Below are positions 123-63,042 of a DNA stretch of 64,000 nt, piece after piece. The first letter of the stretch is position 1, and each line of letters begins with the position of its first letter. Made by a program: the position numbers and the translations under genes. This DNA comes from Vampirovibrionales bacterium (lineage in GTDB: Bacteria; Cyanobacteriota; Vampirovibrionia; Vampirovibrionales; Vampirovibrionaceae), in assembly GCA_029262635.1 (NCBI GenBank), contig JAJCZA010000020.1, positions 1 through 64,000 of the forward strand, in the 5' to 3' direction. The notes beneath the pieces were generated by a model that was not told the origin of the DNA, ran no database searches, and saw only the letters and a list, made by a program, of their open reading frames with translations.

Positions 123-914
123 TCAAATAGTTAGCAACACCGTTTTTTCTTGCTTAGATAATCTATACATCTTGGCAGATAGAACCTCCGTTCTTTCTTG
201 CCTAAGGAGGAAAGAAAGAGGGGACTCACTGACAGCGTTTTGGACAGAGGTTTTGGATTTCCAATCTCCGTCCTCATCCTCTGGATAAATAGTTTCAAGG
301 GATATAAAGCTACCATAGTCCTGAAACACGAGCATTTTTTCAGCCTCGCTTTCAGAATACTCATAAGTTTCCATCAATTCCATTTTGACTTCTTGAAAAG
401 TCGGAATACGTTTATATTTTTGTTCAAGTTTTTTTGTTGTTCTGTATATCTGTCTCTCTTCCTTACGAGACTTGCTAGGTAAAGTATCGGTTCTTTTCAG
501 CTCATCGCGTATTGAGCCTAGAATTCTTTGTCTTAGATAAAAGTGCCCTCGGTTTAAATTTTTTTCAGTTAGCTCTCCCTCAAAGCGTCGGATACCATCT
601 AATAGACCTTCTAGGCCCGCATTAATGATATCTCCTAGTTCTACAGAGGGGGGAAGTTGGCCCTTCATGTGGTAAGCAATCCTATAAGCGAGAGGGAGTA
701 ATTGTTTTACGGCTTTGTCTTCTCCCTCTCGGGGGAGCGTCCTATCTCTTTTAGGTTGGTTTTCTGGAGTTTCCTCTTCGAGAAGATCTGTTATTTCGAA
801 CGTGTCATCGGCTTCATCGAAGTCGCCTTGGAACCGAACCGGTTTCGTTTTTTCTGGCTGGGCTGCAAAAACGAGGCTTATTCCCGATTGAGAGGAAATC
901 ACGGGTGATAACAT
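123..914 (-). CDS. FliA/WhiG-type RNA polymerase sigma factor, C-terminally truncated
   Basis: A sigma-70 family protein of 263 aa. After a low-complexity N-terminal extension (about residues 1-65), sigma region 2 is clear: LLPLAYRIAYHM, then GQLPPSVELGDIINAGLEGL, as in FliA/WhiG, followed by RQRILGSIRDELK. A region 3-like helix follows (LPSKSRKEERQIY, then IPTFQEVKMEL). Region 4 starts (LSKQEKTVLL) but stops after LTI, so the -35-binding helix-turn-helix is missing; neither other frame downstream restores a convincing one before the window edge. The start at 914 follows AAGG at about 8 nt. The extension holds PVRFQG (residues 25-30), a motif shared with other proteins here. The family reads flagellar and late genes; with region 4 gone the role is doubtful. 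It may be a decaying gene or one broken by a frameshift. Confidence 0.8.
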   Translation of the reverse strand: MLSPVISSQSGISLVFAAQPEKTKPVRFQGDFDEADDTFEITDLLEEETPENQPKRDRTLPREGEDKAVKQLLPLAYRIAYHMKGQLPPSVELGDIINAGLEGLLDGIRRFEGELTEKNLNRGHFYLRQRILGSIRDELKRTDTLPSKSRKEERQIYRTTKKLEQKYKRIPTFQEVKMELMETYEYSESEAEKMLVFQDYGSFISLETIYPEDEDGDWKSKTSVQNAVSESPLSFLLRQERTEVLSAKMYRLSKQEKTVLLTI

Positions 915-1388
915 GGGAGAGCCTTTATATTGACTGAGGGCTGTAAGATAGAATGGTAGACACTACTAGTTCACGATTAGATCCGTGAAAGGGAGAAATT
1001 GATCAAGGGGTTTCATTTCGTTACAAATGAGTTGTTACAAAGCTTTTACGCAACAAGCCCTAAATAAAGCCTGCTTTGCAGGCCCAAAAAAAAGCCCCTA
1101 TATTTTCATACAGGGGACATCACAACATCTCTGTCTCTCTCTTTTTAAATCAGACACCATGCAAGTTCGAAGGGGGATAAACTTGAGGTGTAAAAGCTCT
1201 TTCCTTGGTTTTTACCAAGGGGAATTTTTGATTTTGAATAGCTTATGCGCTATATAATAATAAAAACATTATTAAGGCTAAAATTGCTTCAAAGTATCTA
1301 AATTATATCCATTTCGATACATTTTTTAGCTAAAAGGGCAAAATCCACTGTAGATAAAGGGTTTTCAGCTTTACATTAACCCGGTTCT
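915..1388. other. Intergenic region between sigma factor and nadC
   Basis: No convincing gene in 474 bp. It holds one strong minus-strand terminator (1086-1116), a GCCTGC/GCAGGC hairpin just beside it (1068-1083), and a CCTTGG/CCAAGG hairpin near 1203-1220. On the minus strand directly after nadC, a stretch reads as 20-odd protein-like residues (ending KKCIEMDII) without a start codon; it may be a gene remnant or chance. Confidence 0.4.
1086..1116 (-). terminator. Rho-independent terminator downstream of nadBC
   Basis: On the minus strand a 9-bp stem (CCCCTGTAT paired with ATATAGGGG, one G-U) with a 4-nt loop is followed by C and eight T. It lies about 270 nt after nadC and ahead of the sigma gene, so it probably ends the nadB-nadC transcript. 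Confidence 0.75.
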
Positions 1389-2231
1389 TCAGGAAAAATC
1401 AAGACCAATATCGATCATGGGGGCACCGAGGGTAATTTTACTGGTCGAAATAAAGGAAACGCCCGTCTCCGCAATAGCCCGTATTTGGCTTAAAGTAATC
1501 CCTCCACTTGCTTCAGCAATGGCTTTTCCGTTGATAGTGGCCACCGCCTGACAAAGGGTGGCCGGGTCCATATTGTCCAGTAAAATAATATCCGCACCGG
1601 ATTCTACGGCCTCTTTTACCTGTTCCAACGTGTCAACTTCCACTTCAATGGTAGCTGTGTGGGATAAATGTTGTCGAAGTTCGTCAACCGCTTTTTTAAT
1701 ACTGCCGACTGCTTTAATATGGTTATCTTTCAGCATAGCGGAACTGCCCAAATTAAATCGATGAGGTGACCCACCGCCATGGAGCACGGCTTGTTTTTCA
1801 AGAAAACGAAGTCCAGGCGTAGTTTTTCGTGTATCAGTTACTTTCGCGGAAGTTCCGGCAATAGCATCTGCATAACGCCGAGTCTCCGTAGCAATTCCGC
1901 TCAGGTGCTGCAAAAAATTAAGGGCTACCCGTTCAGCCTTAAGAAGGGAAGCGGTTTGTCCTTGCACGGTTAAAACCTTATCGCCCGCCTGAAGCGAGTC
2001 GCCATCTGATACGCTTAAATCCAGCTTCAATGCAGGATCAACAGCCCAAAAAACTTGGCACGCTATATCTAATCCAGAGATAACACAGGCTTCTCGAACG
2101 GATAGGCTTCCGGTGCTCTGATTTTCAGGAGTGTTAAGAACGGCCAGATTGTCCGTTGTGACATCGCCCTGCCCTAGATCTTCTAGTAAGGCTTCTGTTA
2201 TCAGTTTTTTGATAACGGGAATAACGGTCAT
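1389..2231 (-). CDS. nadC: Nicotinate-nucleotide pyrophosphorylase (quinolinate phosphoribosyltransferase)
   Basis: Converts quinolinate and PRPP to nicotinate mononucleotide, CO2 and PPi in cytosolic de novo NAD synthesis. The 280-aa length is normal. Family signatures are present in order: EDLGQGDVTTD near the N-terminus, ALNFLQHLSGIAT, DTRKTTPGLRFLEKQAV, GGGSPHRFNLGSSAMLKDNH, VEVDTLEQV, IILLDNM, and the C-terminal EASGGITLSQIRAIAETGV. The start overlaps the nadB stop by 4 bp, so the two genes are translationally coupled, in the order nadB then nadC. nadA (quinolinate synthase) is not in the window. Confidence 0.96.
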   Translation of the reverse strand: MTVIPVIKKLITEALLEDLGQGDVTTDNLAVLNTPENQSTGSLSVREACVISGLDIACQVFWAVDPALKLDLSVSDGDSLQAGDKVLTVQGQTASLLKAERVALNFLQHLSGIATETRRYADAIAGTSAKVTDTRKTTPGLRFLEKQAVLHGGGSPHRFNLGSSAMLKDNHIKAVGSIKKAVDELRQHLSHTATIEVEVDTLEQVKEAVESGADIILLDNMDPATLCQAVATINGKAIAEASGGITLSQIRAIAETGVSFISTSKITLGAPMIDIGLDFS

Positions 2232-3880
2232 CCACTGACTCCTAAGGAAACAGCGTCTCGTCTCATACGGGGAACTTGTGTGCTATGTCGAGCTTCTGGT
2301 AAGGCATCCGGGTAATCCTCCCGATGGTGAGCCCCTCGACTTTCTTTTCGGGCTAACGCCGCTTCGGTAATTAAACGGGCCAAAAGCAATTGATTTACAT
2401 AATCAATGCCCAACGGCGCATATTTCCAATAATTCATCTGGCTGGCTTGATCTTCAAGGTTTTTAATCTCAAAGAGAGCTTGCTTAAGGGCTTTTTCTGT
2501 TCGGACAATGCCAACATATCGCCACATTAGCTGATGTAAGGCTTCCACATCAGCTTCCAATGATTCTGACAAATCAAAACAGTAATTAACGGGCTCTAAT
2601 TTAACTAAGGAAGTAAGGGTAGATGGGATCTCTTCTGGTGAAAACTCATCGCCAATGGCTATGGCGCAATTTTTTGCCAAAACCACACATTCCAACAAAG
2701 AGTTGCTGGCTAGGCGGTTTCCACCATGGAGTCCTGTCCAAACAGTTTCACCCACAACAAACAAACCATCAACCTTGGTTCGACCGCTCAAGTCTACTTC
2801 AACACCACCCATAATATAATGAGCCGCTGGCGCCACAGGCATCTGGTTTTTCCTAATATCAATTCCAAATTGCTCCGCCGCTTTTAGAATGGAAGGAAAA
2901 CGCTTCTCAATCTTCTTATCAGGCAGGTGGGTAATATCTAAATAGACATGACTCAAGGAAGCGTCTTGTTTTATCAGGCCAGCCGTCTCATGTTGTTTTT
3001 CAATTTCACGATAAATGGCTCGGGTCACCACATCACGAGGCGCCAACTCACCTCTTGGATCGTAATTTGAGGTAAACGGCTCTCCATGAACATTCCTTAA
3101 AATACCTCCTTCTCCCCGAAGGGCTTCGGAGATGAGAAAATGGGCTTTTCCATCAAGAAAAAAAGCGGTGGGATGAAACTGAACAAATTCCATGTCATGT
3201 AAAACACAATCAGCAGAATAAGCTAACGAAAATCCATTTCCCGTCGCTCCTTCCGGATTTGTACTTTGAGCAAAAAGGCGTCCTAGGCCACCGGTTGCCA
3301 GAATCGTGTACTGAGACAGAATCATTAACTCTCTCTGGTTTTTATATTCAATGGCCCGGCACCCATAACAACGGCCGTCCTTGGAAAACAGCTCGGAGAC
3401 CTCGCAGAACTCGAGCACTTCAATATTAGGATCCTCATGTACCCGATTGACCAAGGTCATTTCAACCTGTTTTCCGGTGGCATCACCTCCTGCGTGAAGG
3501 ATTCGACGGACACTATGCCCGGCTTCCAATGTTAACTCAAGTTCACCTAGTTCATTAGTATCGAAAGGGACGCCCATCAATAGTAGTTCGGAAATAGCCT
3601 GATACCCATCTCCTAGAATACGTCGAACGACTTCCTCTTTACAGAGTTCAGAGCCAACATTCAGGGTGTCCTGCACGTGAAGTTCAAGTGAATCACCACT
3701 ATTTTCCGGCAAAACAGCGGCAATACCACCTTGAGCATATCGAGAGTTATTTTCTGACAAAGCGTTCTTGGTGATAATCAAGACTCGAACCCCAGCCTTG
3801 GAAAGTTTTAACGCCGTAAACAAACCCGAAATACCGCTACCAATAATTACTGCCGGTATGGACTTGGTTTCAAAACTCAC
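2228..3880 (-). CDS. nadB: L-aspartate oxidase
   Basis: FAD enzyme that oxidises L-aspartate to iminoaspartate, the first step of de novo NAD synthesis. At 550 aa it matches the family. Visible are the dinucleotide fold GSGISGLFTALKLS at residue 13 on, SRYAQGGIAAVL, the conserved HSVRRILHAGGDATGKQ, the substrate-side MEFVQFHPTAF, ISEALRGEGGILRN, PAAHYIMGGVEVDL and GLHGGNRLASNSLLE, which separate NadB from succinate dehydrogenase. First gene of the nadB-nadC unit. It is divergent from rimP across a 267-bp gap that should hold both promoters. Confidence 0.96.
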   Translation of the reverse strand: MSFETKSIPAVIIGSGISGLFTALKLSKAGVRVLIITKNALSENNSRYAQGGIAAVLPENSGDSLELHVQDTLNVGSELCKEEVVRRILGDGYQAISELLLMGVPFDTNELGELELTLEAGHSVRRILHAGGDATGKQVEMTLVNRVHEDPNIEVLEFCEVSELFSKDGRCYGCRAIEYKNQRELMILSQYTILATGGLGRLFAQSTNPEGATGNGFSLAYSADCVLHDMEFVQFHPTAFFLDGKAHFLISEALRGEGGILRNVHGEPFTSNYDPRGELAPRDVVTRAIYREIEKQHETAGLIKQDASLSHVYLDITHLPDKKIEKRFPSILKAAEQFGIDIRKNQMPVAPAAHYIMGGVEVDLSGRTKVDGLFVVGETVWTGLHGGNRLASNSLLECVVLAKNCAIAIGDEFSPEEIPSTLTSLVKLEPVNYCFDLSESLEADVEALHQLMWRYVGIVRTEKALKQALFEIKNLEDQASQMNYWKYAPLGIDYVNQLLLARLITEAALARKESRGAHHREDYPDALPEARHSTQVPRMRRDAVSLGVSG

Positions 3881-4083
3881 GCCAGATTTATCTCCGATTT
3901 TAATTCTTAAGTGAACAAACCGCTCAAACTTGAAAAGCGGATTATAGCACTAACGTATTTAAAAAGCTTTCAAACTAACCCATGAATAAGCTTGTTAGAG
4001 ACGCCCTCTTTATACTTTCTCAAACCCGATTGAATTTCACCTATTTTATGATAGGATGTCTGCCATAACTTTTTGATTTAATC

Positions 4084-4118
4084 AGAAAGTGGGTGATTTC
4101 CGCCCACTTTCTTTTTTT
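4084..4118 (+). terminator. Intrinsic terminator in the rimP leader (candidate attenuator)
   Basis: A perfect 10-bp stem (AGAAAGTGGG at 4084-4093, CCCACTTTCT at 4103-4112) with a 9-nt loop runs into seven T. It sits only 29 nt before the rimP start and no gene precedes it on this strand. A possible -10 element, TATGAT (4047-4052), lies just upstream. The arrangement suggests premature termination of the rimP-nusA-infB transcript. In E. coli this operon is known to be autoregulated by NusA; regulation here is inference. Confidence 0.7.
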
Positions 4119-4147
4119 AGACCTTCTAATTTAAAAGGAGTCGCCCT

Positions 4148-4732: not shown

Positions 4733-4778
4733 ATCAGGTAATAGTAATTAATATTAACGATGAACGGAGCTTTCCAAA

Positions 4779-37792: not shown

Positions 37793-39463
37793 ATGACCAT
37801 TCAGCACGTGCCTAGCCGTTCCACCATGCCTAAATTTGAGGGAAGCTACACACGAAACAAGCCCGGTGGTGGGATTGAATCTTATAGATTTGATGACGTT
37901 GTCCTTTTGGATGGAGGGTTTAGACTCCCCTTTGCAACACAGGGTAAGGAACTTGCGACAACTTCTCCTTTTGACATGCTTAAACTCGTTTCAGGAAAAA
38001 TGGTTGGTCGCCTTGAAAAAATGGGGGTTCAAAAAGAAGATATTCAACAAACTAAAACGGGTGGTATTTCGCCCGTCGTCGACTATAACCAACCTTTTAA
38101 TTTCCGATCGGGAATTACTGCTGGCGGACTCGATCCTAATGAATTTACGTCACGAGAGGATAACATCTTGTGTGGAACCGGATTTGATGTAATCGCCCAA
38201 TCGGCTTTCCCACTTTGTAATGGTGGTGAAGACCAAGTTATCCTTGCCGGTGCCGCAGAAAATATGTCCCAATCTCCTCAGAAAGATGCCAAGGTCAATC
38301 TACTGGGTATGAAAGCAGCTAAGGCGGTTAAAGCGATGTCACTTACTAGCCTGAAGAAAATGTCCTTTTCGGAAAAGACTCAGACCCTTAAGGATTCGCT
38401 AAGGGCGATTAAAGACTTCCAGATGTATAAATTAACTAAAAATCTGGATATGAGTTTGATTAAAGGGCTTACAGATCCAGCGGCAGACTGGATGCTGGTT
38501 ACAGCGGATATATTGGCCAATCGGTTTAATATTTCTCAAGAAGCGATCGATCAATACTCCCTTCTGTCTCAACAGCGTTATGCTGAAGCTCAAGAAGCCG
38601 GACGTTTTTCAAAAGAGATTATGCCTATTACTCAGGAAGATTTTCCCAGCCTTCGGGTGAAGCCTGGAACCGTTTTTGATACAGATAGCCACGCCCGTCC
38701 AGATGCGACCATAGAGGGCATCAAAAAACCGAGGCCTATGGGGGGGATGTTTACTAAGTTTAAAAAAGGAAAATATCCTATAGAAAATTTCTTCAAGCAT
38801 AGAGCCTCCAATGCGAGTGGTGTTGTTGATGGGGCAGCTATTGCTCCAATTAGCACTGCGGAATTTGCCTTTAAAAAAGGAGCGTCGGTGTTGGCTAAAG
38901 TCGTGAGTATGGCGACTGTGGGTGTTCATCCGGATATCATGGGCTACGGGCCGGCTAAGGCCATTCCGGCTGCACTAGAACAAGCTGGATTGACCATGGA
39001 TCAAATGGATATGGTTGAAATTAACGAAGCCTTTGCCGGTCAGGTCCTTGCTTGTGCTAACGATCTGGTTATGGACGAAGGTGTTCTAGACGACGTTGAA
39101 AGAAAAATTCTTCTTGGCGCTGAACCTAATGCCTCTGAGGGTGCAGACCGGAATGTCTTGAATGACGTTCGTGAAAAATTGGCCCCGACTCTCCGTAGCC
39201 CGGAACATAAAGCTAAACTCAATAAACTGATGGAAAAGCTCAATGTGGATGGCGGATCCATTGCCATTGGGCATCCGCTACCGGTGTCAGGTTTGCGAAT
39301 TGCCCTTCACGCCAGTCAGATGATGAAAGAGCAAAACCTCCAACATGCCGTAGTTTCAGCCTGCATTGGTGGTGGGCAAGGCATTGCACTGGTTCTTGAA
39401 AACCCACACTACGACCCAACCCAACCCAAGCGGCCCACAAAGGCTATTGCCGCCAATTTTTAG
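37793..39463 (+). CDS. Thiolase (acetyl-CoA acyltransferase family), enlarged
   Basis: Thiolases cleave 3-ketoacyl-CoA with CoA or condense acetyl-CoA. All catalytic residues are present: Cys127 (LCGTG), NEAF, His494 (GHP) and Cys524 (CIGGG), with the usual 30 residues between the last two. At 556 aa it is about 130-150 aa longer than normal; extra sequence lies in the middle (about 165-230) and in front of the NEAF motif and after it (DVERKILLGAEPNASEG region). It is closer to FadA/FadI-type than short-chain PhaA. MPKFEG (residues 12-17) matches the shared N-terminal motif. GGGGAG precedes the ATG. Possible use: acetoacetyl-CoA or fatty acyl breakdown. Confidence 0.87.
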   Translation: MTIQHVPSRSTMPKFEGSYTRNKPGGGIESYRFDDVVLLDGGFRLPFATQGKELATTSPFDMLKLVSGKMVGRLEKMGVQKEDIQQTKTGGISPVVDYNQPFNFRSGITAGGLDPNEFTSREDNILCGTGFDVIAQSAFPLCNGGEDQVILAGAAENMSQSPQKDAKVNLLGMKAAKAVKAMSLTSLKKMSFSEKTQTLKDSLRAIKDFQMYKLTKNLDMSLIKGLTDPAADWMLVTADILANRFNISQEAIDQYSLLSQQRYAEAQEAGRFSKEIMPITQEDFPSLRVKPGTVFDTDSHARPDATIEGIKKPRPMGGMFTKFKKGKYPIENFFKHRASNASGVVDGAAIAPISTAEFAFKKGASVLAKVVSMATVGVHPDIMGYGPAKAIPAALEQAGLTMDQMDMVEINEAFAGQVLACANDLVMDEGVLDDVERKILLGAEPNASEGADRNVLNDVREKLAPTLRSPEHKAKLNKLMEKLNVDGGSIAIGHPLPVSGLRIALHASQMMKEQNLQHAVVSACIGGGQGIALVLENPHYDPTQPKRPTKAIAANF

Positions 39464-39486: not shown

Positions 39487-39807
39487 ATGAACATAAATTC
39501 AGCACCCATCCACTTTGGGACAATAATTACAACAAAGCGTCCTGTTTTGTTTATACATTCACCCGGTAAAAATCTGACCTTTGCTACAGAGCAGGATATG
39601 TTAGATCGAATTAAAGAAGAGCAGGAAACTTCTAGCGCAGAAGTGAGAAGACTTAGTATGACTTTATATGATCCACTACCCCCTAACCAAGTGGATTACG
39701 TCGAGCAAGAAAAACAATTGGGGTCCGAACATCGTCCGGCGGTCACTCACCAACTAGAGGATATTAATCTCGAGAAGCTTGGAAAACGATTAGAATTAAA
39801 AGCCTGA
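39487..39807 (+). CDS. Hypothetical protein with N-terminal PIHFG motif, 106 aa
   Basis: Not recognised. It starts MNINSAPIHFGTIITTKRPV, with PIHFG at residues 7-11 resembling the motif of other proteins in this window, and continues polar and charged with no membrane segment. An AAAGGA ribosome site lies about 8 nt before ATG. It follows the thiolase by 23 nt in the same direction, so they are probably co-transcribed. Confidence 0.6.
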   Translation: MNINSAPIHFGTIITTKRPVLFIHSPGKNLTFATEQDMLDRIKEEQETSSAEVRRLSMTLYDPLPPNQVDYVEQEKQLGSEHRPAVTHQLEDINLEKLGKRLELKA

Positions 39808-41156: not shown

Positions 41157-42368
41157 TTATCTGGTAAGAACAGCCCAACTTCGTTGAATTCGATGGGCTT
41201 TGTCTCGAAAGAATAACACAAGCCGTTGCTTTAATGGGATTTCTAAAGATTCTCGATGATCCGCCAGTGATTTTTCTTCCTGCTCCCTTAAGCTTCGGCG
41301 TAAATCCGCTGCCTCGGCCCGTTTTTTCTGGGCTTCTGTTTTAGGAGTCCACTCTGGGAGCTGAGCCGGTTCACCGTGTTCATTTAGGTGAACATACACG
41401 AGATAGCATGATGCGATTTTTCGAGGTGTCTCAGGTTGGTTTGGGTTAATGGCTTCGATTTCTACCTGAACCTCCATGGATGTTTTCCAGGTTTTGGTGA
41501 CGGTTGCTCGGGCATGAACCGTTTCTCCTTTAAATCCCGGGGCAATAAAACTCATTCGATCCATTCGAACGCCCGCAATAATCTCACCGAGCGCTTGATT
41601 CTTTGCGGCTTCTCGTCCAGCCTTTTCAAGTATTTCCAAAATAACGCCGCCAAAGACATTACCGGTAATGTTGGTGTGCTTTCGGCTCATTGTTTCAGAT
41701 ATTTCAGTGATATAAGGTGTATCACTTTCGCCTAAAGGAATATAGGGAGCTGCCTGCTCTTCTTCCTTTCGGTGAATTTTTCGGACTTCTGCTCCCTGTG
41801 CCCGATGAAAATCCTCAATGGATGTTTCAATGAGAGGAGGAACATGGGTGGGTTTTCTATTTCTATCCAAAGCCACAAAAACCAAATGGGCTGAAGCGAC
41901 AGGCACTTCCGTTGGTTCGCCTCGACGGTAGCCATAAGCCGACACATCAATTTGAACCTCAGCCGAGTGGTTAAATACTTTGGTGATTCGGCTCTTCATT
42001 TTGATGAAATCCCACGCCTTAATAGGGTTTATAAAGTTCAGCCGATCCAGCGATGCGGTAACAAACAGGCTTTTACCTTCCATGTGCCGAAACAAAGGGA
42101 CGGCACCTAACGTGTCAATAAGCTTGAGCAAGTAGCCCGCTTCCACATTGCCCATCTCGTTGCAATGCTCCTGTAAGGCTGGCTGGAAGAGAAACCCTCG
42201 TGATGCGGCTGATGTTTTAGAACGAGGTGATTTCAGGCTCAACGCATCTTCATCCCCGATCCACTCTCCCACTGGATCATCCGCCTGGCCAAATTTCAAC
42301 GGCATTGGGTTTTCCTTTTTTGAAAACAACACAGAGTTTTTGAAAGACGGCATCTGAACAAAGGCCAT
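41157..42368 (-). CDS. Acyl-CoA thioesterase with two hot-dog domains (ACOT9/BFIT-like)
   Basis: Hydrolyses acyl-CoA to free acid and CoA. The 403-aa protein holds two hot-dog repeats: about 70-180 (NVEAGYLLKLIDTLGAVPLF, FINPIKAWDFIKMKSRITK) and about 220-345 (SRKHTNITGNVFGGVILEIL, VRMDRMSFIAPGFKGETVHA). A charged helical tail follows (LRRSLREQEEKSLADHRE). The start is ATG 42368 (AGGA at about 10 nt) or ATG 42305 (AAGGA at 6 nt). In the shorter form the protein begins MPLKFGQAD, the same motif as its neighbours carry. It lies upstream of the RNA methyltransferase. Confidence 0.84.
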   Translation of the reverse strand: MAFVQMPSFKNSVLFSKKENPMPLKFGQADDPVGEWIGDEDALSLKSPRSKTSAASRGFLFQPALQEHCNEMGNVEAGYLLKLIDTLGAVPLFRHMEGKSLFVTASLDRLNFINPIKAWDFIKMKSRITKVFNHSAEVQIDVSAYGYRRGEPTEVPVASAHLVFVALDRNRKPTHVPPLIETSIEDFHRAQGAEVRKIHRKEEEQAAPYIPLGESDTPYITEISETMSRKHTNITGNVFGGVILEILEKAGREAAKNQALGEIIAGVRMDRMSFIAPGFKGETVHARATVTKTWKTSMEVQVEIEAINPNQPETPRKIASCYLVYVHLNEHGEPAQLPEWTPKTEAQKKRAEAADLRRSLREQEEKSLADHRESLEIPLKQRLVLFFRDKAHRIQRSWAVLTR

Positions 42369-45501: not shown

Positions 45502-45726
45502 CCTAAGCTATTGTAGTTTCCGGCTTGCCGATGAATTTCTGGCGGGATAATAACTTCGTAAGGCCGCCAATAATCACAGATTACAACTAAAGACACATCG
45601 TTTGAACTCTTTCCCAAAAGGGCTTTAGAGTTTGTCAAGCTCCAAACCATCAACAACAGCAAGTCTAATCGGCTTTGGCAAAGCATCAGCGACCGACCGC
45701 TTTAATCCACTGAAACACGGCAACAT
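45483..45726 (-). pseudogene. Frameshifted small gene (about 80 aa in two frames)
   Basis: An ATG at 45726 with AGGA 6 nt upstream opens a 33-codon frame starting MLPCFSGLKRSVADALPKP and ending at TAA 45625-45627. From about there the +1 frame continues in protein-like sequence (SKALLGKSSNDVSLVVICDY, IIPPEIHRQAGNYNSLGY) to a stop at 45483. Together this looks like one gene with a +1 shift at CTC-TAA. PCFSG (residues 3-7) resembles the motif of other proteins here. Family unknown. It could be a pseudogene, a sequencing error or a recoded gene. It lies downstream of rlmB on the same strand. Confidence 0.45.
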
Positions 45727-48063: not shown

Positions 48064-49659
48064 ATGGAACCTCTGTTTAACTTCAGTACTTTAAATAGCG
48101 GAAACACAACGTCCTTACAAAGCAATGGGAGCGGTATCGGTGTTGATGTCGATCCGTTTGATGGCCGAGGTGGCGACTTTTTGGATCCAAATGATATTGG
48201 CGGCGAAGTCAATAATGTTAACATCGGTCGAGGCGGAAGTGTGTTTGGCGCACACCCTAACTCAAAAGACATTTTGAAAATTACCCGAAGTCAGATTGGT
48301 GGCGTTTTAACCGGATTTACCTCAATCGATGCCACCATTCCTATTTTTCAGGGTGGCAACTTCGCTTTACCCGTACCAGACTTGGGCATTAACCCTAGCC
48401 CGTTTGACATTACGGCCTCTAGCACGTTTTTCGCAAACCAAATTCGTCCGGCTGTCTCACAAGGGAGCGGCAGCTTATTCAGTAGTCACCCCACCTCAGC
48501 AGGAATTTTGTTCGATGTGACCAGCCATGGTAACGCCCTAATTGGTCGCCAGTCTATTTTTAACCGACCCATTTCCCTTCAGCCTGTCAATACTGGCTCC
48601 AATGTCCAGACCTATGTTCCCTTTAATCCAGACAACCCCGTGAATAACAATGCTCCCATTTATGGAATACCTTCGCTCACTCATAACCCCTATGATTTCT
48701 TTAACGGATCATCTCTCGACTTTTATCCGGGCGTATTTTCCAATAACGCTCAGCCGGTTCCTCATCCGTTTTTCTACCCTCAAAAATATCCGTTTGGGCA
48801 ATTCCCCAGCTATTCTACCTACCCGAATAACCTACCGTTTCCGGCACAACATCCTCATTTTGGCTTTCCACCAGCACAGAGTGTAAATATGGGTTCCTTT
48901 CAGGACCGCTACGAATTGGTTCAACGGCTCGTAGCTGAAAACGGAAGCACGGCTCCTGATTTCGTTCCTCGGAATGTTCCCGGTGGCGTGACAGATTTCC
49001 TCTTTCGTTTTCCTTTCCTCAGTGATGAACGTCAGGACGCATTACGAGAAACGTTTGCCAACCCCACTCTGGTGGATGAAGATATTCTGGCCGAAACCGG
49101 CATTTCCTCCGAAGGCGGCGCTTATGACCAAGGTGTTGTTACCAATCCTTATGTTTTTGATGGCTTTTTAACCGATACCAACCCCGCAAGCAGTTTTAAT
49201 CAAGGTCTGGTAGTCACCAATGGCAATGGCAACGGAAAAGTGAAAGGTACCGAAACACAGGATTGGATTTTTGGTAACCAAAGTCGAGCCAACATCATCG
49301 ATGGTCAGGGCGGCTACGACCGGATCCAAGGCGGAATGAGGGCCGATTTAATCAACGTGGCCCAAGGCGACAACGTATCGGCGTTGGCTGGCGAGGACAT
49401 CCTCTTTTTTGACTTTGATCCAGAAACAAGCAACCCGTTTGTTTTGAACACAAGAATTGATGCCGGAAGCGGTTTGGATACAGTGGTGTTAACCGTTGAT
49501 AAAGATTTATCCGACGAAGCTAACGTCCCTTCGTTCACACAGATGGGGGATGGTACTCTACGAGTGAGCCTAAACGGCAAGCACCTCTACGTCAGCAATG
49601 CAGAACGGTTTATCGTCGCTGATAAAGCCGGTGATATTGGTGCCATTTTTGAAGCCTAA
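48064..49659 (+). CDS. Probable secreted protein with RTX-like C-terminal repeats
   Basis: A 531-aa acidic protein without Sec signal peptide. Its N-terminal half contains two copies of an SxFxxHPxSxxIL element (SVFGAHPNSKDIL and SLFSSHPTSAGIL). A Pro/Tyr/Phe-rich segment follows (FFYPQKYPFGQFPSY, about residues 235-275). The C-terminal third holds degenerate Ca-binding RTX nonapeptides (GTETQDWIFGNQSRANIIDG, GGYDRIQGGMRADLINVAQG) and ends as such proteins do. RTX proteins normally leave by type I secretion; no transporter is in the window. ATG start follows AGGAG at 8 nt. Possible adhesin or surface factor, inference only. Confidence 0.7.
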   Translation: MEPLFNFSTLNSGNTTSLQSNGSGIGVDVDPFDGRGGDFLDPNDIGGEVNNVNIGRGGSVFGAHPNSKDILKITRSQIGGVLTGFTSIDATIPIFQGGNFALPVPDLGINPSPFDITASSTFFANQIRPAVSQGSGSLFSSHPTSAGILFDVTSHGNALIGRQSIFNRPISLQPVNTGSNVQTYVPFNPDNPVNNNAPIYGIPSLTHNPYDFFNGSSLDFYPGVFSNNAQPVPHPFFYPQKYPFGQFPSYSTYPNNLPFPAQHPHFGFPPAQSVNMGSFQDRYELVQRLVAENGSTAPDFVPRNVPGGVTDFLFRFPFLSDERQDALRETFANPTLVDEDILAETGISSEGGAYDQGVVTNPYVFDGFLTDTNPASSFNQGLVVTNGNGNGKVKGTETQDWIFGNQSRANIIDGQGGYDRIQGGMRADLINVAQGDNVSALAGEDILFFDFDPETSNPFVLNTRIDAGSGLDTVVLTVDKDLSDEANVPSFTQMGDGTLRVSLNGKHLYVSNAERFIVADKAGDIGAIFEA

Positions 49660-50185: not shown

Positions 50186-53100
50186 GTGGTTAATATGAAT
50201 ACAGTCTCCTTTCCAGCGGCTTCTCCCGCAAAAAAAGACGTAAACAAGCGGGAAATCCAACCCGATAAGCAGCCTGTATTTTCTGGCCCTAACAAACGAG
50301 AGCTAACAGAGACTTCTGCCTCCGCTTTACAAGCAAATTTTATGCCCGTCCTCTTTTCAGGCGAAAAACGAAAGGCTAAAGTTACAGAAGGATTACTTAA
50401 AAAAGCCCTAAAAAAACTTGAAGTACCCGAAATGCTCTCGGTGCTGGAAAACGCAAAAATTTTGGCGGCTGAAAAAGGCCACCCGCAAGTCACCGCTTTG
50501 CACCTACTAACAACTCAAGTGAATGCCATGCTCGGTGACATTAACCCCAAGGCGACGTTAAGCCGACAAGGGAATACAATCCTGAAGCAGTTTGAAAACC
50601 CTCGCGGCCTCTGGTCAGCTAACTTAGGAATTATTCAAAAGGCGTCTCATCCTGAAGACATTTTATTCCATTTAAAACGAGTCGCTATCAAACTCCACGA
50701 AACGTTAGATAACATTCCCGCGAAATCCCCTCTCAAGGTCACCCAAGTGAAGTTGAGTCAGAACGTCCTTGACTTATTAATGGAGCAGATTCAGTTTTTA
50801 AAAGATCGTCGTCCCAGTGACAAAGAAATGCATGAAGTGACAAGCAGAGAGGTTGATGCAAATTTACCCCCTGAGTTTGAGGCTAGCTATGGTGCTCAAG
50901 AAAATGAAATAGAGAAAATAGGTACGGATTTAGAAGCCCGATTCCCAAAACATTTAAAGGCTCTAACCTCTTACGATCTTCAGATTCTAGAGACGTATGT
51001 TTCATTCAAAAAGCTTTCAGATGCTTATAATCAGGTTAAGTTGGATATCGAGTCAGGCGAAACCCAAATGTCGGAAGACCAAAAAGCGACGAAAGAGACT
51101 TTTGCAATCACGTCTCTATCTCCGGAAGGACCTGTTCAACAGAGTGTTCCGTTCAATGACATGCCGAAAGTACTTGAACGCTTCAAAAAAGACTTTCTGA
51201 CTCTCCTCGATCAGGCTTTTTTAAATGATTCTGATCGAGTGTCGGAATCAGAGCAGGAGCTCGACACAATCCCTTTAGAGGCGATTGAATTGATGCTTAA
51301 ACTTAAAGGGGTGGAGAAAAAACTCGATCAGATGGATGAACAGGTTGAAACCTTACGACTTAAAGCGGAAGAGAATTGGCGAAAAGAAATAGACCAGGGC
51401 ATTTTCTCACACATCATCACGGGTACCTATAATGAATTTATTCCCTCAGGTTATTTAAAAGACACGCAAATAGCTCAAGCTCGCTCTCTGTTTTTAAGTT
51501 TGATTAACACTCTGGTGGGTGATCATGCGTCCACCTCAGAATCATCAAGCGCTTATCTGAATCGAATTGTTGAAAATGGCGGTGGTGATCCAGAAATTAA
51601 AAATCTGACCCAAATGCTTCGAATGCGAGAAATCCTCCTGAGCAAAGTTGAAGGTAGTACAATGCCACTGCTTCCTGGCGAACCCAAGCCGTTGCCTTCA
51701 CTCTCTCTCTTAAAAGAACTGAAAGATGTTACGGCTTTAATTAAGGCTTATTCCCAAGTCGACTGGAAGGATCTTAAAAATAAATCCGTCGATTTGAAGC
51801 TGGCGAAAACGTTGTTAGATTCCAACCCGCTCATTCCGCCACCGGTTCGATCAGAACTGATAAATTTTCTAAAGCAGGGCAATAAAAATAACTGGCAGGC
51901 ACAACCGATGCTGGTTCTGATGGGTGGCTATGGAACAGGGCTGGTTAAACGAGAAGTCATCAAATTTCTCGAAGCTATCCTACCCATGAACGCTTATGAA
52001 GCGAAGGGACCTTATGACGGTCAGCTTACGAACACCGAGCAGGGAGCACTTTCGAAAGAAAAAGAACTTTCTGTACCCGCTAAAGCTCTAATCCACAGCG
52101 TTGAATCCGCCCGACAAAAGGGCACACTGCCCACCCCATCACCCAGTACGTTTATTAATCTGGGTAATCTATTGAATTTTCTAGAAGAAGGCGGATTCTC
52201 CCAATTTAGCTCCCTTATGGGCACACAAAAGCGCAAAGATTTCGAAGAACCTGAACTACGAGGCATTACCATGGACTTGAGTCCGTATGTGTTTGTAACT
52301 TCCGTTGAAAATGAAGGCGTGCTCGACTATTTGGGCAGTCATTATGGGGGCAATCTAAATCATCGAGATTGGAGCTTGATTGAGCTGGGTAAAGACATTG
52401 ATATTTTCACTAAAATCAGAGCGGCTGAAACAGAAATTGCCCCGGCAATTGAGGCAGAATATAACGCTAGGTTCGCCAAAGGAGCAGTTAAAACCATTGT
52501 AACCTATTGGGCGATTGACGCTCGGCATGATGAAATTGAAAGGATATTAACCGAAGCCGCTCGAACCGCCGCAGGAAAAACCAGTAGTACCCAAACCCAA
52601 ACAATTCCAGCCGAGGTGGAAATCCTTGAAAAAGAGTACTTAGGACCTCAAACAACCTCTTTCTTAAACAAGCATTTAACCGAAGATACGGTGGGAAGCG
52701 TAAACGCCTTAGCAGCCTTCGGCTATGGTGGCGGTGCGGTTATGCGCATGGGTATTCATAGCGCTGGAACATTTTCTCGTAAAGATACAGGCGGACGATT
52801 AGCCCAAATGAGACATGCCGTCGGCCCTATCGGTACTATGGCAAAAGATTCCAGCATTAAAGCAACGGAATTGCTTTCAGCGGTTGTTAGCGAGCTCACC
52901 GATTCAGGCAGTGGAAAAAAGGCGATGTACAAAGTGTTTGAGGATATGACACAAGGCCATGAGCTGATTGTCAATTGGAAGGAAAACGTGGATGGCCCTA
53001 GCGCAGGCGCCGCGATGGCCACCGCGACGATTAGTCGATTAACAGGAATTCCTGTACGTCATGATGTAGCCATGACCGGCACGCTCGCCGATGGATTGCT

Positions 53101-53503
53101 AGTGGGTGAAATTGGCGGCATTTTCAATAAAATTTCAGCCGCTTACGTTGCCGGAACCACCAGTGACATTAAAACCATCCTCATGCCAAAAGCCAACTAT
53201 ATTGAAATGCTAAAAGACCATCCTCAATTTGTCGAAAAGCTAGAACAAGCGGGAACAAAACTAATTGGCGTTGAAACACTGGATGAGGTACTTCGACATT
53301 CGCTGGTGGATTACCAGAAACTCCACCAACCCGCGGAAATTAACACCAAACCAGACGCCGAGGTCCAGGATCCAACAGAGAAAATTCTAACGGTCATTCG
53401 AGAAGCCAACAAAACATCAGCTCAATCAGCCCAAGCCATTATCCCGGATGTCGTCGCTGCTGTTATTAAGCAATTGGCGGAACAGGGGATCTTAAAGAAA
53501 TAA
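50186..53503 (+). CDS. Lon-like serine protease with Clp_N-like region and degenerate AAA+ P-loop
   Basis: A 1105-aa protein. The C-terminal part (about 840-1050) is a Lon protease domain: DGPSAGAAMATATISRLTG with Ser939 and GGIFNKISAAYVAG with Lys982, the 43-residue spacing of the E. coli Lon dyad. Residues about 85-130 (LENAKILAAEKGHPQVTALH) resemble a Clp_N repeat, then a long helical/coiled region. The expected Walker A (LVLMGGYGTGLVKREV, 576-591) lacks GK[ST], so ATPase activity is doubtful. The N-terminus has two copies of the shared motif, PVFSG (30-34) and PVLFSG (54-59). GTG start with AAGGAT 6-7 nt upstream. Not a normal Lon, LonB or LonC; substrate unknown. Confidence 0.82.
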   Translation: MVNMNTVSFPAASPAKKDVNKREIQPDKQPVFSGPNKRELTETSASALQANFMPVLFSGEKRKAKVTEGLLKKALKKLEVPEMLSVLENAKILAAEKGHPQVTALHLLTTQVNAMLGDINPKATLSRQGNTILKQFENPRGLWSANLGIIQKASHPEDILFHLKRVAIKLHETLDNIPAKSPLKVTQVKLSQNVLDLLMEQIQFLKDRRPSDKEMHEVTSREVDANLPPEFEASYGAQENEIEKIGTDLEARFPKHLKALTSYDLQILETYVSFKKLSDAYNQVKLDIESGETQMSEDQKATKETFAITSLSPEGPVQQSVPFNDMPKVLERFKKDFLTLLDQAFLNDSDRVSESEQELDTIPLEAIELMLKLKGVEKKLDQMDEQVETLRLKAEENWRKEIDQGIFSHIITGTYNEFIPSGYLKDTQIAQARSLFLSLINTLVGDHASTSESSSAYLNRIVENGGGDPEIKNLTQMLRMREILLSKVEGSTMPLLPGEPKPLPSLSLLKELKDVTALIKAYSQVDWKDLKNKSVDLKLAKTLLDSNPLIPPPVRSELINFLKQGNKNNWQAQPMLVLMGGYGTGLVKREVIKFLEAILPMNAYEAKGPYDGQLTNTEQGALSKEKELSVPAKALIHSVESARQKGTLPTPSPSTFINLGNLLNFLEEGGFSQFSSLMGTQKRKDFEEPELRGITMDLSPYVFVTSVENEGVLDYLGSHYGGNLNHRDWSLIELGKDIDIFTKIRAAETEIAPAIEAEYNARFAKGAVKTIVTYWAIDARHDEIERILTEAARTAAGKTSSTQTQTIPAEVEILEKEYLGPQTTSFLNKHLTEDTVGSVNALAAFGYGGGAVMRMGIHSAGTFSRKDTGGRLAQMRHAVGPIGTMAKDSSIKATELLSAVVSELTDSGSGKKAMYKVFEDMTQGHELIVNWKENVDGPSAGAAMATATISRLTGIPVRHDVAMTGTLADGLLVGEIGGIFNKISAAYVAGTTSDIKTILMPKANYIEMLKDHPQFVEKLEQAGTKLIGVETLDEVLRHSLVDYQKLHQPAEINTKPDAEVQDPTEKILTVIREANKTSAQSAQAIIPDVVAAVIKQLAEQGILKK

Positions 53504-55109: not shown

Positions 55110-55336
55110 CGAGTGCCTCTGTTACTTGCCTATCGCTTATATGTATCGCTACAAAAAGGAGGGAAACAAGCCCAAGCCCTTCATCACGTCTCACCTTACG
55201 ATTTAACGGAGAGGAAAGTCTCGAAACACCAACCCGTCAGTTGGTAGAATTACTATACGAGTTTTTATTTACGGGTCAAATAGTAGGTATACATTTGTTG
55301 AGTAACGTTCTATTAAAACATCTGAACGACCTGTGA
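55094..55336 (+). CDS. Possible small protein with LRFNG motif, 80 aa
   Basis: Plus-strand ORF with a Ser/Thr/Pro-rich N-terminal part, then LRFNG at residues 35-39, then an amphipathic helical end (RQLVELLYEFLFTGQIVGIH). The Ser/Thr-rich leader followed by x-F-x-G is like the start of the sigma factor and Lon-like protein. There is no ribosome site before ATG 55094, and it overlaps a minus-strand candidate by 16 bp, so coding status is weak. Confidence 0.3.
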   Translation: MMLQTSSASVTCLSLICIATKRRETSPSPSSRLTLRFNGEESLETPTRQLVELLYEFLFTGQIVGIHLLSNVLLKHLNDL

Positions 55337-57221: not shown

Positions 57222-57434
57222 ATGAGAATTAAGAAGGAAAATAACCAGTTTAACGCCATCCAGTTTGGTGTTGGAGAATTTCAAAAAACACACGACGGAG
57301 AAACAGTCCATACGGTCGATGCGCTGAAGTTTTTGGACCGCAATCAGAAAATTGAAAGTTCGTTTTCACCTGGACTCTATGAGCGAATCGCATCATCAGT
57401 TAATGATTTTGAGAAACTGAACCTATTATCCTGA
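57222..57434 (+). CDS. Small protein with AIQFG motif, 70 aa
   Basis: Not recognised. It begins MRIKKENNQFNAIQFGVGEF, with AIQFG at residues 12-16 like the N-terminal motif of several neighbours, and continues charged and polar. ATG at 57222, with GGAGG 10 nt and AGAGG 3 nt upstream. It is followed 49 bp later by another small gene in the same direction, so they may be a pair. Confidence 0.55.
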   Translation: MRIKKENNQFNAIQFGVGEFQKTHDGETVHTVDALKFLDRNQKIESSFSPGLYERIASSVNDFEKLNLLS

Positions 57435-57729: not shown

Positions 57730-57731
57730 AT

Positions 57732-58349: not shown

Positions 58350-58373
58350 TATTTAATGCCTCTAACTTCTATT

Positions 58374-59856: not shown

Positions 59857-61373
59857 TAGTAAGCCCTCCAACCGTTCGCTAACAACCACGGACTCTCGCC
59901 GTTATGGGTCAACGTTCGTTCGGATTCTAAACCATGACCGTTCCCCAACGCCAATGCGACTGCAGCCCATACGACATCAGGAATATCCTCCATCGTGTGT
60001 TCCGACGTAATGGAATGTTCCTCCAGAAAATGCGTATGAATCACTCCGCTTTGGAATTGGGGATGCTTGATAACATCCCGTAAAAAGCAGGTATTGGTCA
60101 TCACGCCCAGAACTGGAAAGTGATTCAAAGCCCATTCGGCTTTAGCCATTGCTTTTTTCCTGTCCTCGGCCCAGACAATTAACTTCGAGAGCATCGGATC
60201 ATAATGAATAGAGACTTCAGCCCCGGAATCCACCCCAGAATCCACACGGATACCAGGGCCATCTGGCGGAAGATAGTGAACCAATTGACCAATAGAAGGC
60301 ATAAAGTTTCGACTGGCATCCTCAGCATAAATCCGACACTCAATGGCATGGCCGGTTTGCGTCAGATTGTCCTGTTTAAACGGTAAAGGTTCACCTTGGG
60401 CCACAGCAATTTGCGCCTGCACTAAGTCCTGACGAGTCACCATCTCAGTAACAGGATGCTCTACTTGAAGTCGGGTATTGACCTCCAAAAAGTAAAACGA
60501 CCCATCCTCCGAGAGAATAAATTCTACCGTGCCTGCGTTCGTATAATGAATGGCCTTAGCGGCGTTAATAGCCGCCTGCCCCATAGCATCCCGAAGTTCC
60601 GGAGTAAGCGCCGGAGAAGGGGTTTCTTCAATGATTTTTTGATGGCGACGCTGAATAGAACATTCCCGCTCAAACAAATGCACCACATTGCCATGATCAT
60701 CACCAAAAATTTGAAATTCCACATGACGAGGCCGAGTAATGTACTTTTCCAGAAAAATTCGGTTGTCACCAAAAGCGTTTTGAGCTTCTCTTGCAGCGGA
60801 CTCTAAAGCGTCAGGCAGTTCGCTGGCTTTATGAACAAGCCTCATTCCTTTCCCACCACCTCCGGCAGCGGCCTTAACTAGCAACGGGTACCCAATAGCG
60901 TCAGCGGCCTTGGAGAGCGTCTTTAACTCACCGGCCAACTTACTCATGTCTAAATCGCCTGACCAACCCGGCACCACCGGAACCCCTGCTTTTTCCATAA
61001 TAGCTTTGGCTACAATCTTATCACCCATGGACTCAATAACCTCAGGCTTAGGACCAATAAACATGATCCCCGCCTGCTTACAGGCTTTGGCAAACGCCGC
61101 ATTCTCCGATAAAAAGCCGTAGCCCGGATGAATCGCATCGGCGTTTGCCTGTTTCGCAATGTCTAAAATTAAGCCCTGCTGCAGATAGGTCTCCGCCGCT
61201 GTATTACCCGGTAAGTGATAAGCTTCATCAGCCATCCGTACATGGAGCGCGTTTTTATCCGCATCCGAATACAGGGCAATAACTTGAAGCCCCATCTCCT
61301 GAAGGGTTTTTGTGATACGAACCGCTATTTCTCCCCGGTTGGCGATGAGAACTTTCTTAAAGGGATTAGACAT
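59856..61373 (-). CDS. Biotin carboxylase subunit (methylcrotonyl-CoA carboxylase alpha, split)
   Basis: ATP-grasp enzyme that carboxylates biotin on the carrier protein. At 505 aa it shows LIANRGEIAVRITKTLQEMG, YHLPGNTAAETYL, AAAGGGGKGMRLVHKASEL, ERECSIQRRHQKIIEETPSP, FYFLEVNTRLQVEHPVTEM and IECRIYAEDA. The C-terminal SPWLLANGWRAY is where fused alpha subunits continue into the BT domain. Membership in the MCC rather than the ACC group is inferred from the leucine-pathway neighbours. The start lies 8 bp inside the upstream hydratase gene. Confidence 0.93.
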   Translation of the reverse strand: MSNPFKKVLIANRGEIAVRITKTLQEMGLQVIALYSDADKNALHVRMADEAYHLPGNTAAETYLQQGLILDIAKQANADAIHPGYGFLSENAAFAKACKQAGIMFIGPKPEVIESMGDKIVAKAIMEKAGVPVVPGWSGDLDMSKLAGELKTLSKAADAIGYPLLVKAAAGGGGKGMRLVHKASELPDALESAAREAQNAFGDNRIFLEKYITRPRHVEFQIFGDDHGNVVHLFERECSIQRRHQKIIEETPSPALTPELRDAMGQAAINAAKAIHYTNAGTVEFILSEDGSFYFLEVNTRLQVEHPVTEMVTRQDLVQAQIAVAQGEPLPFKQDNLTQTGHAIECRIYAEDASRNFMPSIGQLVHYLPPDGPGIRVDSGVDSGAEVSIHYDPMLSKLIVWAEDRKKAMAKAEWALNHFPVLGVMTNTCFLRDVIKHPQFQSGVIHTHFLEEHSITSEHTMEDIPDVVWAAVALALGNGHGLESERTLTHNGESPWLLANGWRAY

Positions 61374-62181
61374 TCGGAGTGGATTCCTTGGACTTTGTTA
61401 CCCAATAAGGCCGTCGCTTTTCAAGAAAGGCTTTAATTCCTTCTTGGCCTTCTTTTGAAATACGACGTTCGGCGATCATTTCGGTGGTGACCTTTTCCGC
61501 CGTATTCCATAAGGGGCCACTCACTTCGTAAATTAATTTTTTACAGGCTGACACGGCCTCGGGCCCATTTTTTAGAATCAGTTTAATTTCCTGCTCAATC
61601 CATTCATCCATCTCGGTGGTATGGAGTTTTACTTCATTAACCAGATTAATTCGTTGGGCTTCTTTGGCATCAAAGCGTTCAGCCGTCAGAAAATATCGGC
61701 TAGCATTGGCGTTTCCTATTTTTTCCAGAACAAAGGGCGAGATAACGGCGGGTAAAATGCCCAATTTTACTTCCGTCAGGCCAAACAAACAGCGATCCAG
61801 CGTCACTGCCATATCACAGGCGGCAATCAATCCAACGCCACCTCCGAAAGCGGCACCATGAACACGGGCAATGGTTGGCTTGGGGCAGGTTCGAATGGTC
61901 TGAAGCATATGAGCTAGTTCTTTAGCGTCTTCTACATTTTCCCGGAAGTCGTAATCCACCATCTTTTTCATCCAGTTCAGATCCGCGCCAGCACAAAAAG
62001 ACTGACCTTCACTCCGCAGCACAATAGCTCGAACCGTTTCATCTTCCCCCAAAAGCTTAAAGGCCTGTTCCAGCTCCTGAATAACTTGTTCATTAAAGGC
62101 GTTATGCCGTTCGGGTCGATTCAGGGTCAGGGTGCCCACCTGATTTGAACACTCATATTGAACAAACTCAAATTCTGCCAT
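61366..62181 (-). CDS. Enoyl-CoA hydratase/isomerase, probably methylglutaconyl-CoA hydratase
   Basis: Crotonase-fold enzyme, 271 aa. Oxyanion-hole and active-site parts: LRSEGQSFCAGADLNWMKKM (CAGADL), VHGAAFGGGVGLIAACDMAV and LTEVKLGILPAVISPFVLEK (E at the catalytic position), followed by YFLTAERFDAKEAQRINLVN. In this cluster the likely reaction is hydration of 3-methylglutaconyl-CoA to HMG-CoA. It overlaps the biotin carboxylase gene by 8 bp. The upstream edge is separated from the carboxyltransferase gene by two small plus-strand genes. Confidence 0.9.
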   Translation of the reverse strand: MAEFEFVQYECSNQVGTLTLNRPERHNAFNEQVIQELEQAFKLLGEDETVRAIVLRSEGQSFCAGADLNWMKKMVDYDFRENVEDAKELAHMLQTIRTCPKPTIARVHGAAFGGGVGLIAACDMAVTLDRCLFGLTEVKLGILPAVISPFVLEKIGNANASRYFLTAERFDAKEAQRINLVNEVKLHTTEMDEWIEQEIKLILKNGPEAVSACKKLIYEVSGPLWNTAEKVTTEMIAERRISKEGQEGIKAFLEKRRPYWVTKSKESTPNV

Positions 62182-62365
62182 GACGATTCTCTCGCCTCCC
62201 TAATTACAATGCCTAGTGACTAATGGAAAGTATAGCAAGGACAAACAGAAGATTAAAAGGGAAAGAAAACGAAAGGTCATATTTATATGCCCCCGCCGTT
62301 GGTGAACCCGTCTGTTTTTGTTAATATAGAACCACATTACACACGGACAGATAAGAGGGGGATTT

Positions 62366-62725
62366 ATGATGCACACACAATTTTCAGGGATGACATATTA
62401 TGTTAGTCAAAAACCTTTGCCTGATCTGGCAGAAAAACTTCAGAAACAGGCAAACCAGAATGGTAACCCCTTTGCGCATCTGGTTTACGGAAAGGCAAAA
62501 AACAATGATGATGTCGTCATTCGAGATGTGTTGGCTATCTCCCATCCCGACGAGAAAAATTTTGACATGATGATGCTCGGTAACTCCTATGACTTGATCC
62601 CTGTTCAACTTGATACTTCCCAAGCCCCCACCACTCTGAATGACATCATACAGTTCACCCGGAAAAGCCTGCCTTTTATAAAAGATTTTCCCATTGCCCA
62701 AGTTATGAAAACGTTGAACCTGTAG
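62366..62725 (+). CDS. Hypothetical protein with TQFSG start motif, 119 aa
   Basis: Not recognised. Begins MMHTQFSGMTYYVSQ, with TQFSG at residues 4-8, the motif seen in other proteins here. The rest looks like one alpha/beta domain (KLQKQANQNGNPFAHLVYGK, LNDIIQFTRKSLPFIKDFP). GAGGGGG lies 4-9 nt before the double ATG. It interrupts the leucine cluster on the opposite strand. No cysteine or catalytic pattern. Confidence 0.6.
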   Translation: MMHTQFSGMTYYVSQKPLPDLAEKLQKQANQNGNPFAHLVYGKAKNNDDVVIRDVLAISHPDEKNFDMMMLGNSYDLIPVQLDTSQAPTTLNDIIQFTRKSLPFIKDFPIAQVMKTLNL

Positions 62726-62859
62726 CCTTTGTTAGAGCCTACCCAAAAAATAACCGGGTCAAGCTAGACATTAAGAGTAAACTTTATTAAAATGACATTG
62801 CCAATGTCTTCAATGGAATACATTGGCTGAAAGTAGAGTAGTTGAAGGGGATGGATAAA

Positions 62860-63042
62860 ATGAATTTAAGCTTTGGTAATTGGCCCATACACGGTGATCT
62901 CAAAAAACAACAACCTTTTTTTGGTGATGACGGGCCTGGTGGATTTATTTCAGCAGGATGGCCTCCTACTACTGAGACGAAACACCCTGACCTCCGTGCA
63001 CCATTGGCTCAAGATGTTTTTGAGGAAGGTATGGGCGTATAA
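62860..63042 (+). CDS. Small protein with LSFG start motif, 60 aa
   Basis: Not recognised. From ATG 62860 the peptide starts MNLSFGNWPIHGDLKKQQPF and is Gly/Pro/Asp-rich. LSFG (residues 3-6) places it with the motif-carrying group. AAGGGG is 9 nt upstream; an ATG at 62851 is an alternative start. It is followed by a strong terminator 27 nt after the stop. Opposite strand to the leucine genes. Confidence 0.55.
   Translation: MNLSFGNWPIHGDLKKQQPFFGDDGPGGFISAGWPPTTETKHPDLRAPLAQDVFEEGMGV

Follow-up and report, generated by a model that had tools for sequence, protein, structure and literature searches.

A candidate N-terminal Phe-Gly address tag on soluble accessory proteins of Vampirovibrionales

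Why would a sigma-like protein, a thiolase, a thioesterase and a Lon-like protease share a short peptide near their start? The question arises from a 64,000-nucleotide stretch of a Vampirovibrionales genome (the window; G000:C20:1-64000, where G000 is a 2.99 Mb draft in 31 contigs), in which an initial annotation had noticed a recurring motif with Phe and Gly near the N-terminus of about ten unrelated proteins. The best reading is that this motif may be a lineage-specific, N-terminal sorting tag on soluble accessory proteins; roughly Pro-x-Arg-Phe-Gly, it would lie near the start of about 1 protein in 20 and looks like an address tag that is so far undescribed. No paper on such a motif turned up in the open-licence literature. 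The statistics given here rest on genome stretches, about a third of one genome plus small samples of its relatives, in which genes were called with a home-made hexamer caller and gene starts are predictions.

The motif and its position within proteins

As first read off the window, the motif was a loose one, [PAT].{0,2}F.?G. It is found in 15 of the 53 N-termini of the window (residues 2 to 60; 6.2 after shuffling, with none of 1000 shuffles reaching 15), a count made in the very sequence from which the pattern had been taken. A fresh sample of the same genome (369 kb, 353 proteins), taken after the tighter pattern described below was frozen, behaves differently: 51 proteins match, shuffled N-termini give 43.6, and 125 of 1000 shuffles are as high, so the difference is not significant. 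There the loose pattern is only 1.1 times denser at N-termini than inside proteins. Being mostly background in fresh sequence, it was rejected as the signal; the comparison with shuffled N-termini, which the initial annotation had proposed, shows no significant excess there.

A tighter form does hold. Position dependence in a discovery sample (721 kb of the window's genome, 628 genes used) singled out a strict pattern, P-x(0,2)-[RKHQ]-F-x(0,1)-G, written as the regular expression P.{0,2}[RKHQ]F.?G; replacing F by L or V gave patterns that did not stand out at N-termini in that sample. A position weight matrix trained by expectation maximisation was dropped, since hydrophobic N-termini had contaminated it and it did not generalise as well as the regular expression. 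In the fresh sample, the strict pattern occurs 14 times within residues 1 to 45, in 11 of the 353 proteins, compared with a mean of 2.5 proteins after shuffling (0 of 1000 shuffles reach 11). Its density is 0.88 per 1000 residues at N-termini and 0.07 inside (Poisson p about 5e-8), and a conservative two-sample binomial test of the excess gives p of about 2e-5. The ratio of N-terminal (residues 1 to 45) to interior (beyond residue 90) density is 11-fold (10.9-fold in the fresh sample) and similar in the discovery sample. With both samples pooled, the density per 1000 residues falls from 1.38 (residues 1 to 20) to 0.63 (21 to 45), 0.17 (46 to 70), 0.16 (next bin) and 0.08 inside, and there is no excess at the C-terminus, where the last 60 residues have the interior value of 0.08. 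Since the frozen strict pattern replicates in fresh sequence, the observation of a repeated N-terminal motif beyond chance stands genome-wide in this narrower form. A slightly wider pattern, sought in the first 80 residues, is present in 70 of 981 genes, compared with 15 of 624 in a control stretch, which suggests that about 5% of genes, or an estimated 130 or so proteins per genome, carry the tag. Looser variants such as LLFSG and VYFG are counted only where stated.

Phe-Gly is a common pair, and a composition artefact or a coincidence caught by a reader's eye has to be weighed. It would account for the loose pattern in fresh sequence and for several single matches within the tagged set that lie in conserved starts with a native Phe-Gly (ribosomal protein L16 and the phosphoglucomutase-like IKFGTDGW). 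The 11-fold replication of the frozen strict pattern, which no shuffle in 1000 matched, and the retention of the tag in orthologues (below) make chance very improbable as an account of the whole. The motif is almost certainly real and under selection. The level of that selection is indicated by the codons, which vary freely within the tag: among 35 listed instances, Phe is encoded by 27 TTT and 8 TTC, as in genome usage, and all four Gly codons occur. A DNA- or RNA-level motif is thereby ruled out, and selection therefore acts on the protein.

Within the window, re-translation reproduced every motif copy for which the initial annotation gave coordinates, and most lie in called genes; LRFNG and LSFG fall in frames that were not called as genes. 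PCFSG, listed there without coordinates, was located outside any recognisable gene. The copies are as follows.

825-842, minus strand: PVRFQG, residues 25-30 of a sigma-like protein (gene 123-914, minus strand); fits the strict pattern.
37826-37843, plus strand: MPKFEG, residues 12-17 of an accessory thiolase (gene 37793-39463, plus strand); fits the strict pattern.
39505-39519, plus strand: PIHFG, residues 7-11 of a 106-residue protein (gene 39487-39807, plus strand); fits the strict pattern.
42288-42302, minus strand: PLKFG, in the leader of a thioesterase-superfamily (4HBT) protein (gene 41157-42368, minus strand); fits the strict pattern.
45706-45720, minus strand: PCFSG, in a short open stretch with no recognisable gene.
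50273-50287, plus strand: PVFSG, a looser tag in a Lon-like protease (gene 50186-53503, plus strand); fails the strict pattern.
50345-50362, plus strand: PVLFSG, a looser second tag in the same Lon-like protease.
55196-55210: LRFNG, in a frame without a called gene.
57255-57269, plus strand: AIQFG, a looser tag without a preceding Pro, in a 70-residue reading frame (57222-57434, plus strand).
62375-62389, plus strand: TQFSG, a looser tag without a preceding Pro, residues 4-8 of a 119-residue protein (gene 62366-62725, plus strand).
62866-62877, plus strand: LSFG, a weak candidate ((N)LSFG, 62863-62877) in a short frame from 62851 or 62860; no gene called.

The sigma-like protein gave a sub-threshold match to Pfam Sigma70_r2. 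Its match to the FliA_WhiG model covers just positions 2-184 of 224, so that a portion of region 4 may be missing. The true full-length FliA of G000, encoded by a separate gene, is untagged. For the 4HBT protein, whose domain was detected among members of the tagged set, the gene caller's start falls downstream of PLKFG, and an upstream ATG is assumed. The 106-residue protein has no assigned function and occurs in one place only in its own genome. Single-sequence AlphaFold models of the 106- and 119-residue proteins had a mean pLDDT (predicted local distance difference test) of about 50 and were not used. Elsewhere in the window, 48064-49659 encodes a 531-residue protein with abundant Phe, Gly and Pro, whose Gly/Asp repeats close to the C-terminus look RTX-like.

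Orthologues, spare copies and gene neighbours

The genomes of the window's family (f1) include G000, G001 and G005; G010 belongs to the same order, f8 to the same class, and f6 comprises gut Gastranaerophilales. Accessory thiolases carry MPKFEG in G000, TQFG in G005 and LRFG in G010, within leaders that have otherwise diverged. Leaders of the PrkA kinase are tagged, by the strict or the loose pattern, in G000, G005, G006, G008, G010 and G016, and those of f8 genomes bear no tag. Accessory ClpP-like proteins are tagged in three genomes. Within the order, the motif is kept in orthologues of all three families. These readings of orthologues and copy number were made by visual inspection with a loose pattern and were not blind. 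Of the arguments for protein-level selection on the tag, the orthologues are the strongest.

The tag is clear in f1 (G000 and G005), and in f2 it is shown through orthologues. G001, also of f1, gives a weak signal, with 1 protein matching the strict pattern, though it has other tag-like starts, for example TPYFGKV in two adjacent genes. Tagged genes also lie on a contig titled Vampirovibrio sp. and in another named relative. No excess of the strict pattern was seen in pooled f3, f4, f5 and f8 samples (302 genes). Samples from other phyla, a comparison that the initial annotation had proposed, gave no excess either: they comprised 131 genes of E. coli and 83 genes on contigs titled Myxococcota, Deltaproteobacteria and Acidobacteria. 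A strong form of the tag in f6 was considered and rejected, because these genomes show no enrichment of the strict pattern (2 hits, 1.6-fold). An f6 variant, [VI][RKHQSTN]F[SAQKENTR]G, gave 8 versus 5 hits (6.6-fold) in one sample and 4 versus 4 (4.4-fold) in a second, which suggests at best a sparse variant tag in these gut bacteria. Possible variant tags in f6 (L101:17933-18346, L185:17553, L187:16937, L264:5117) include NPINFNGLYF, SPQFSGMVP and CPQFTGFIP in two related proteins, and KPVSFKGYDARPL.

The tagged proteins are mostly soluble and of mixed kinds: ClpP-like proteins, PrkA, DUF444, the Lon-like protease, aminopeptidase P, thiolase, thioesterase and PhzF, together with a pyridoxal phosphate enzyme, a phospholipase D-type enzyme, an HD domain protein, a phosphoribosyl pyrophosphate (PRPP) synthetase, a NAMPT-like enzyme, a DEAD/DSHCT helicase and many small proteins without assigned function. 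No curated NCBIfam model, such as one for a known sorting signal, covers many of them: of 140 families that match (E 0.01), none matches more than 1 of 66 members of the set. The tag sits mostly on spare enzyme copies and is absent from the housekeeping copies examined. In three genomes, the tag is carried by 7 of 8 soluble accessory ClpP-like proteins and by none of 3 housekeeping ClpPs (Fisher p 0.024); likewise, the extra PRPP synthetase of G005 is tagged and the housekeeping enzyme is not.

The accessory ClpP-like proteins retain the catalytic Ser, His and Asp, a point that bears on the possibility of a degron, by which tagged proteins would be passed to ClpXP, Lon or accessory ClpP under some conditions. 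Tagged ClpP-like and Lon-like proteases do occur, and the hydrophobic-basic-hydrophobic stretches recall N-terminal recognition motifs of ClpX substrates. However, because the proteases themselves carry the tag and the ClpP-like proteins keep their catalytic residues, they look like cargo, and some 130 unrelated proteins would be a large set for one degron. A degron is therefore improbable; nothing points to degradation, an idea that the initial annotation had raised. Nor is the Lon-like protease, whose two copies had raised the idea of self-recognition, a special case. Its homologue in G005 has PIYFG within its leader, and at least two copies per protein (looser ones included) are also present in PrkA, several ClpP-like proteins and the extra PRPP synthetase, with up to three in one leader, a number reached among the ClpP-like proteins.

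These repeated tags also speak against a cleavage site, in which Gly would end a leader that a dedicated protease cuts off to release the mature enzyme. In keeping with cleavage, most tags are placed after a variable leader and before the domain, and small or hydrophobic residues are modestly enriched behind Gly. Yet no strongly conserved residue follows Gly, and other tags begin as early as residue 2-4, where there is no leader to cut off (MNIPKFAG, MHIPKFSG). Cleavage is likewise improbable, if anything slightly more so than a degron.

Tagged genes lie side by side more often than expected (12 adjacent pairs versus 4.7; 3 of 2000 shuffles as high). A G005 cluster (L093:5750-14381) holds at least seven, including those for the NAMPT-like enzyme, the extra PRPP synthetase and several proteins without assigned function. 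PrkA adjoins an accessory ClpP-like protease, all tagged, at L004:11747-15562 in G000, at L092:677-6013 in G005 (where DUF444 joins them) and at G010:C53:13260-16490. The PrkA/ClpP-like neighbourhood is itself conserved across G000, G005 and G010.

Such clustering, and the shared tags of linked neighbours, would be expected of intracellular docking, the close rival to export, in which the tag would bind a scaffold, a hub protein or a compartment surface and so bring accessory enzymes such as the ClpP-like, PrkA and DUF444 neighbours together at one site. The two or three tags of some leaders and the many tagged enzymes of normally cytosolic kinds also favour it. On the other hand, a docking motif would be expected at C-terminal tails too, where it has no excess; strict double tags are not in excess (1 seen, 2.5 expected), a result that led to the rejection of general multivalency; and the scaffold is itself postulated. 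Docking is accordingly judged unlikely, although clearly less so than a degron or a cleavage site.

Sorting and the possible export route

Relative to untagged N-termini of the same genome, tagged leaders are enriched in Ser (1.60-fold), Pro (1.47-fold), Gln (1.36-fold) and Asn (1.33-fold) and depleted in Asp (0.60-fold) and Glu (0.80-fold). Together, the N-terminal confinement, the Ser/Pro/Gln/Asn-rich, Asp-poor leader and the spare but active copies suggest a sorting signal, and the tag probably does have a sorting function. The sorting or adaptor-recognition tag of the initial annotation is in this respect the best reading of the replicated enrichment, the N-terminal confinement, the orthologue retention and the preference for accessory copies; its degradation part is unsupported.

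The proposed mechanism would begin with a short linear peptide, P-x(0,2)-[RKHQ]-F-x(0,1)-G or a looser variant, displayed in the leader of a soluble accessory protein. A putative N-terminus-reading receptor would recognise the Phe-Gly peptide and route its bearer to one place or machine. Speculatively, the leader might feed the enzyme to a type III-type gate, of which there are two FlhA/FliP sets, or to a receptor before the gate. The chances appear about even that there is an undescribed targeting system, in which a tag of about five residues on some 130 unrelated proteins works with a dedicated receptor to export a parallel set of accessory proteins (proteases, a kinase, enzymes of NAD and fatty-acid metabolism, and a sigma-like protein) or to bring them to a separate location in the cell. 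For the complete proposal, in which soluble accessory proteins bear the Phe-Gly peptide as an N-terminal address and leave through a type III-type gate, the chances fall a little short of even. The export step taken by itself is more tentative; it is slightly favoured over docking, with modest confidence.

Two FlhA and two FliP are present in nearly all f1 to f3 genomes sampled and in most of f5, and both proteins were found in the tagged-group genomes G000, G001, G005, G006, G008, G010 and G016. Type III gate genes (FlhA/FliP) were located as follows.

G000:C5:417958-423196: FlhA/FliP gate genes.
G000:C22:85613-87601: FlhA/FliP gate genes.
L083:118-759: FlhA/FliP gate genes.

FlhA2 is 66-81% identical across f1, f2, f3 and f6, and FlhA1 is 35-40% identical to FlhA2; the FlhA of gut Gastranaerophilales is the orthologue of FlhA2, and FlhA1 represents an additional, diverged type. 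The distance between FlhA2 and the tagged-gene cluster of G005 is about 3.6 kb, and beside FlhA2, near that cluster, is a partial FlhA-like gene (L093:17000-17866, model positions 326-557). Partial FlhA-like genes at C-terminal-domain positions, apart from the full FlhA, also occur once per f6 genome.

Several points weigh against export through such a gate. By family, and in small samples, f1 and f2 have tags and two gates, and f4 has neither; yet f3 and f5 have two gates and f8 has one, with no tags seen, and a gate is therefore not sufficient. In addition, FlhA2 lies in a flagellar-type operon and its ordinary role may be motility, which, with the untagged f3 and f5, makes the type III case circumstantial. 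Any disordered tail would be expected to be rich in Ser, Pro, Gln and Asn, a composition that does not single out type III signals; tagged N-termini owe part of their low hydrophobicity to the analysis filter; PrkA, DUF444 and ClpP-like proteins do not, at first sight, look like secreted effectors; and the candidate receptor is a postulate. No paper on type III secretion in Vampirovibrionales turned up in the open-licence literature.

Two other routes were rejected. VirB4 (PF03135) is absent from G000, G001, G005, G010, G035 and G032, the Caulobacter positive control having been found, and type IV export was rejected on its lack in the genomes searched. A plasmid-borne type IV secretion system has been described in V. 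chlorellavorus (PMC4451040). The contractile-sheath family PF04984 is present only in G000 and absent from G001, G005, G006, G008, G010 and G016; a payload of contractile injection was rejected, as a single tagged genome has the sheath gene. That gene (G000:C7:97298-97777) possibly belongs to a prophage.

Significance and comparison with known systems

The host bacteria are uncultured, hard to grow, non-photosynthetic relatives of cyanobacteria and are related to an algal predator; described relatives of the Vampirovibrio-like lineage prey on green algae. For such organisms the tag offers a way to list, from sequence only, a coherent set of proteins without assigned role. Were it an export signal, that list would be their effector repertoire, so far only guessed; were it to direct proteins to an internal site, an undescribed compartment or scaffold would be indicated. 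Under either reading, the question can be tested by one reporter fusion.

Among known systems, the type III secretion signals of flagella and injectisomes are likewise N-terminal, lie in disordered, Ser/Pro/Asn-rich and Asp-poor leaders, and are borne by unrelated soluble proteins, and their gates FlhA and FliP are present twice in tagged genomes. They differ in that they are generally described without a fixed Phe-Gly sequence; genomes with gates but without tags exist, and export here is a proposal. The cargo or docking peptides of bacterial microcompartments and encapsulins are also short, terminal peptides that route unrelated enzymes to one place, but they are amphipathic helices or C-terminal peptides, unlike the tag. 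ClpX recognition motifs share the N-terminal location, the short length and the combination of hydrophobic and basic residues; in contrast, the tagged proteins include proteases themselves. Finally, the FGLK motif of chloroplast transit peptides also places Phe-Gly in a Ser-rich N-terminal leader. The tag, however, has a basic or polar residue before Phe and lacks Leu-Lys behind Phe-Gly: FGL[KR] is found in none of the 35 listed instances, where Gly is followed instead by Ala, Ser, Thr, Gln, Leu and others.

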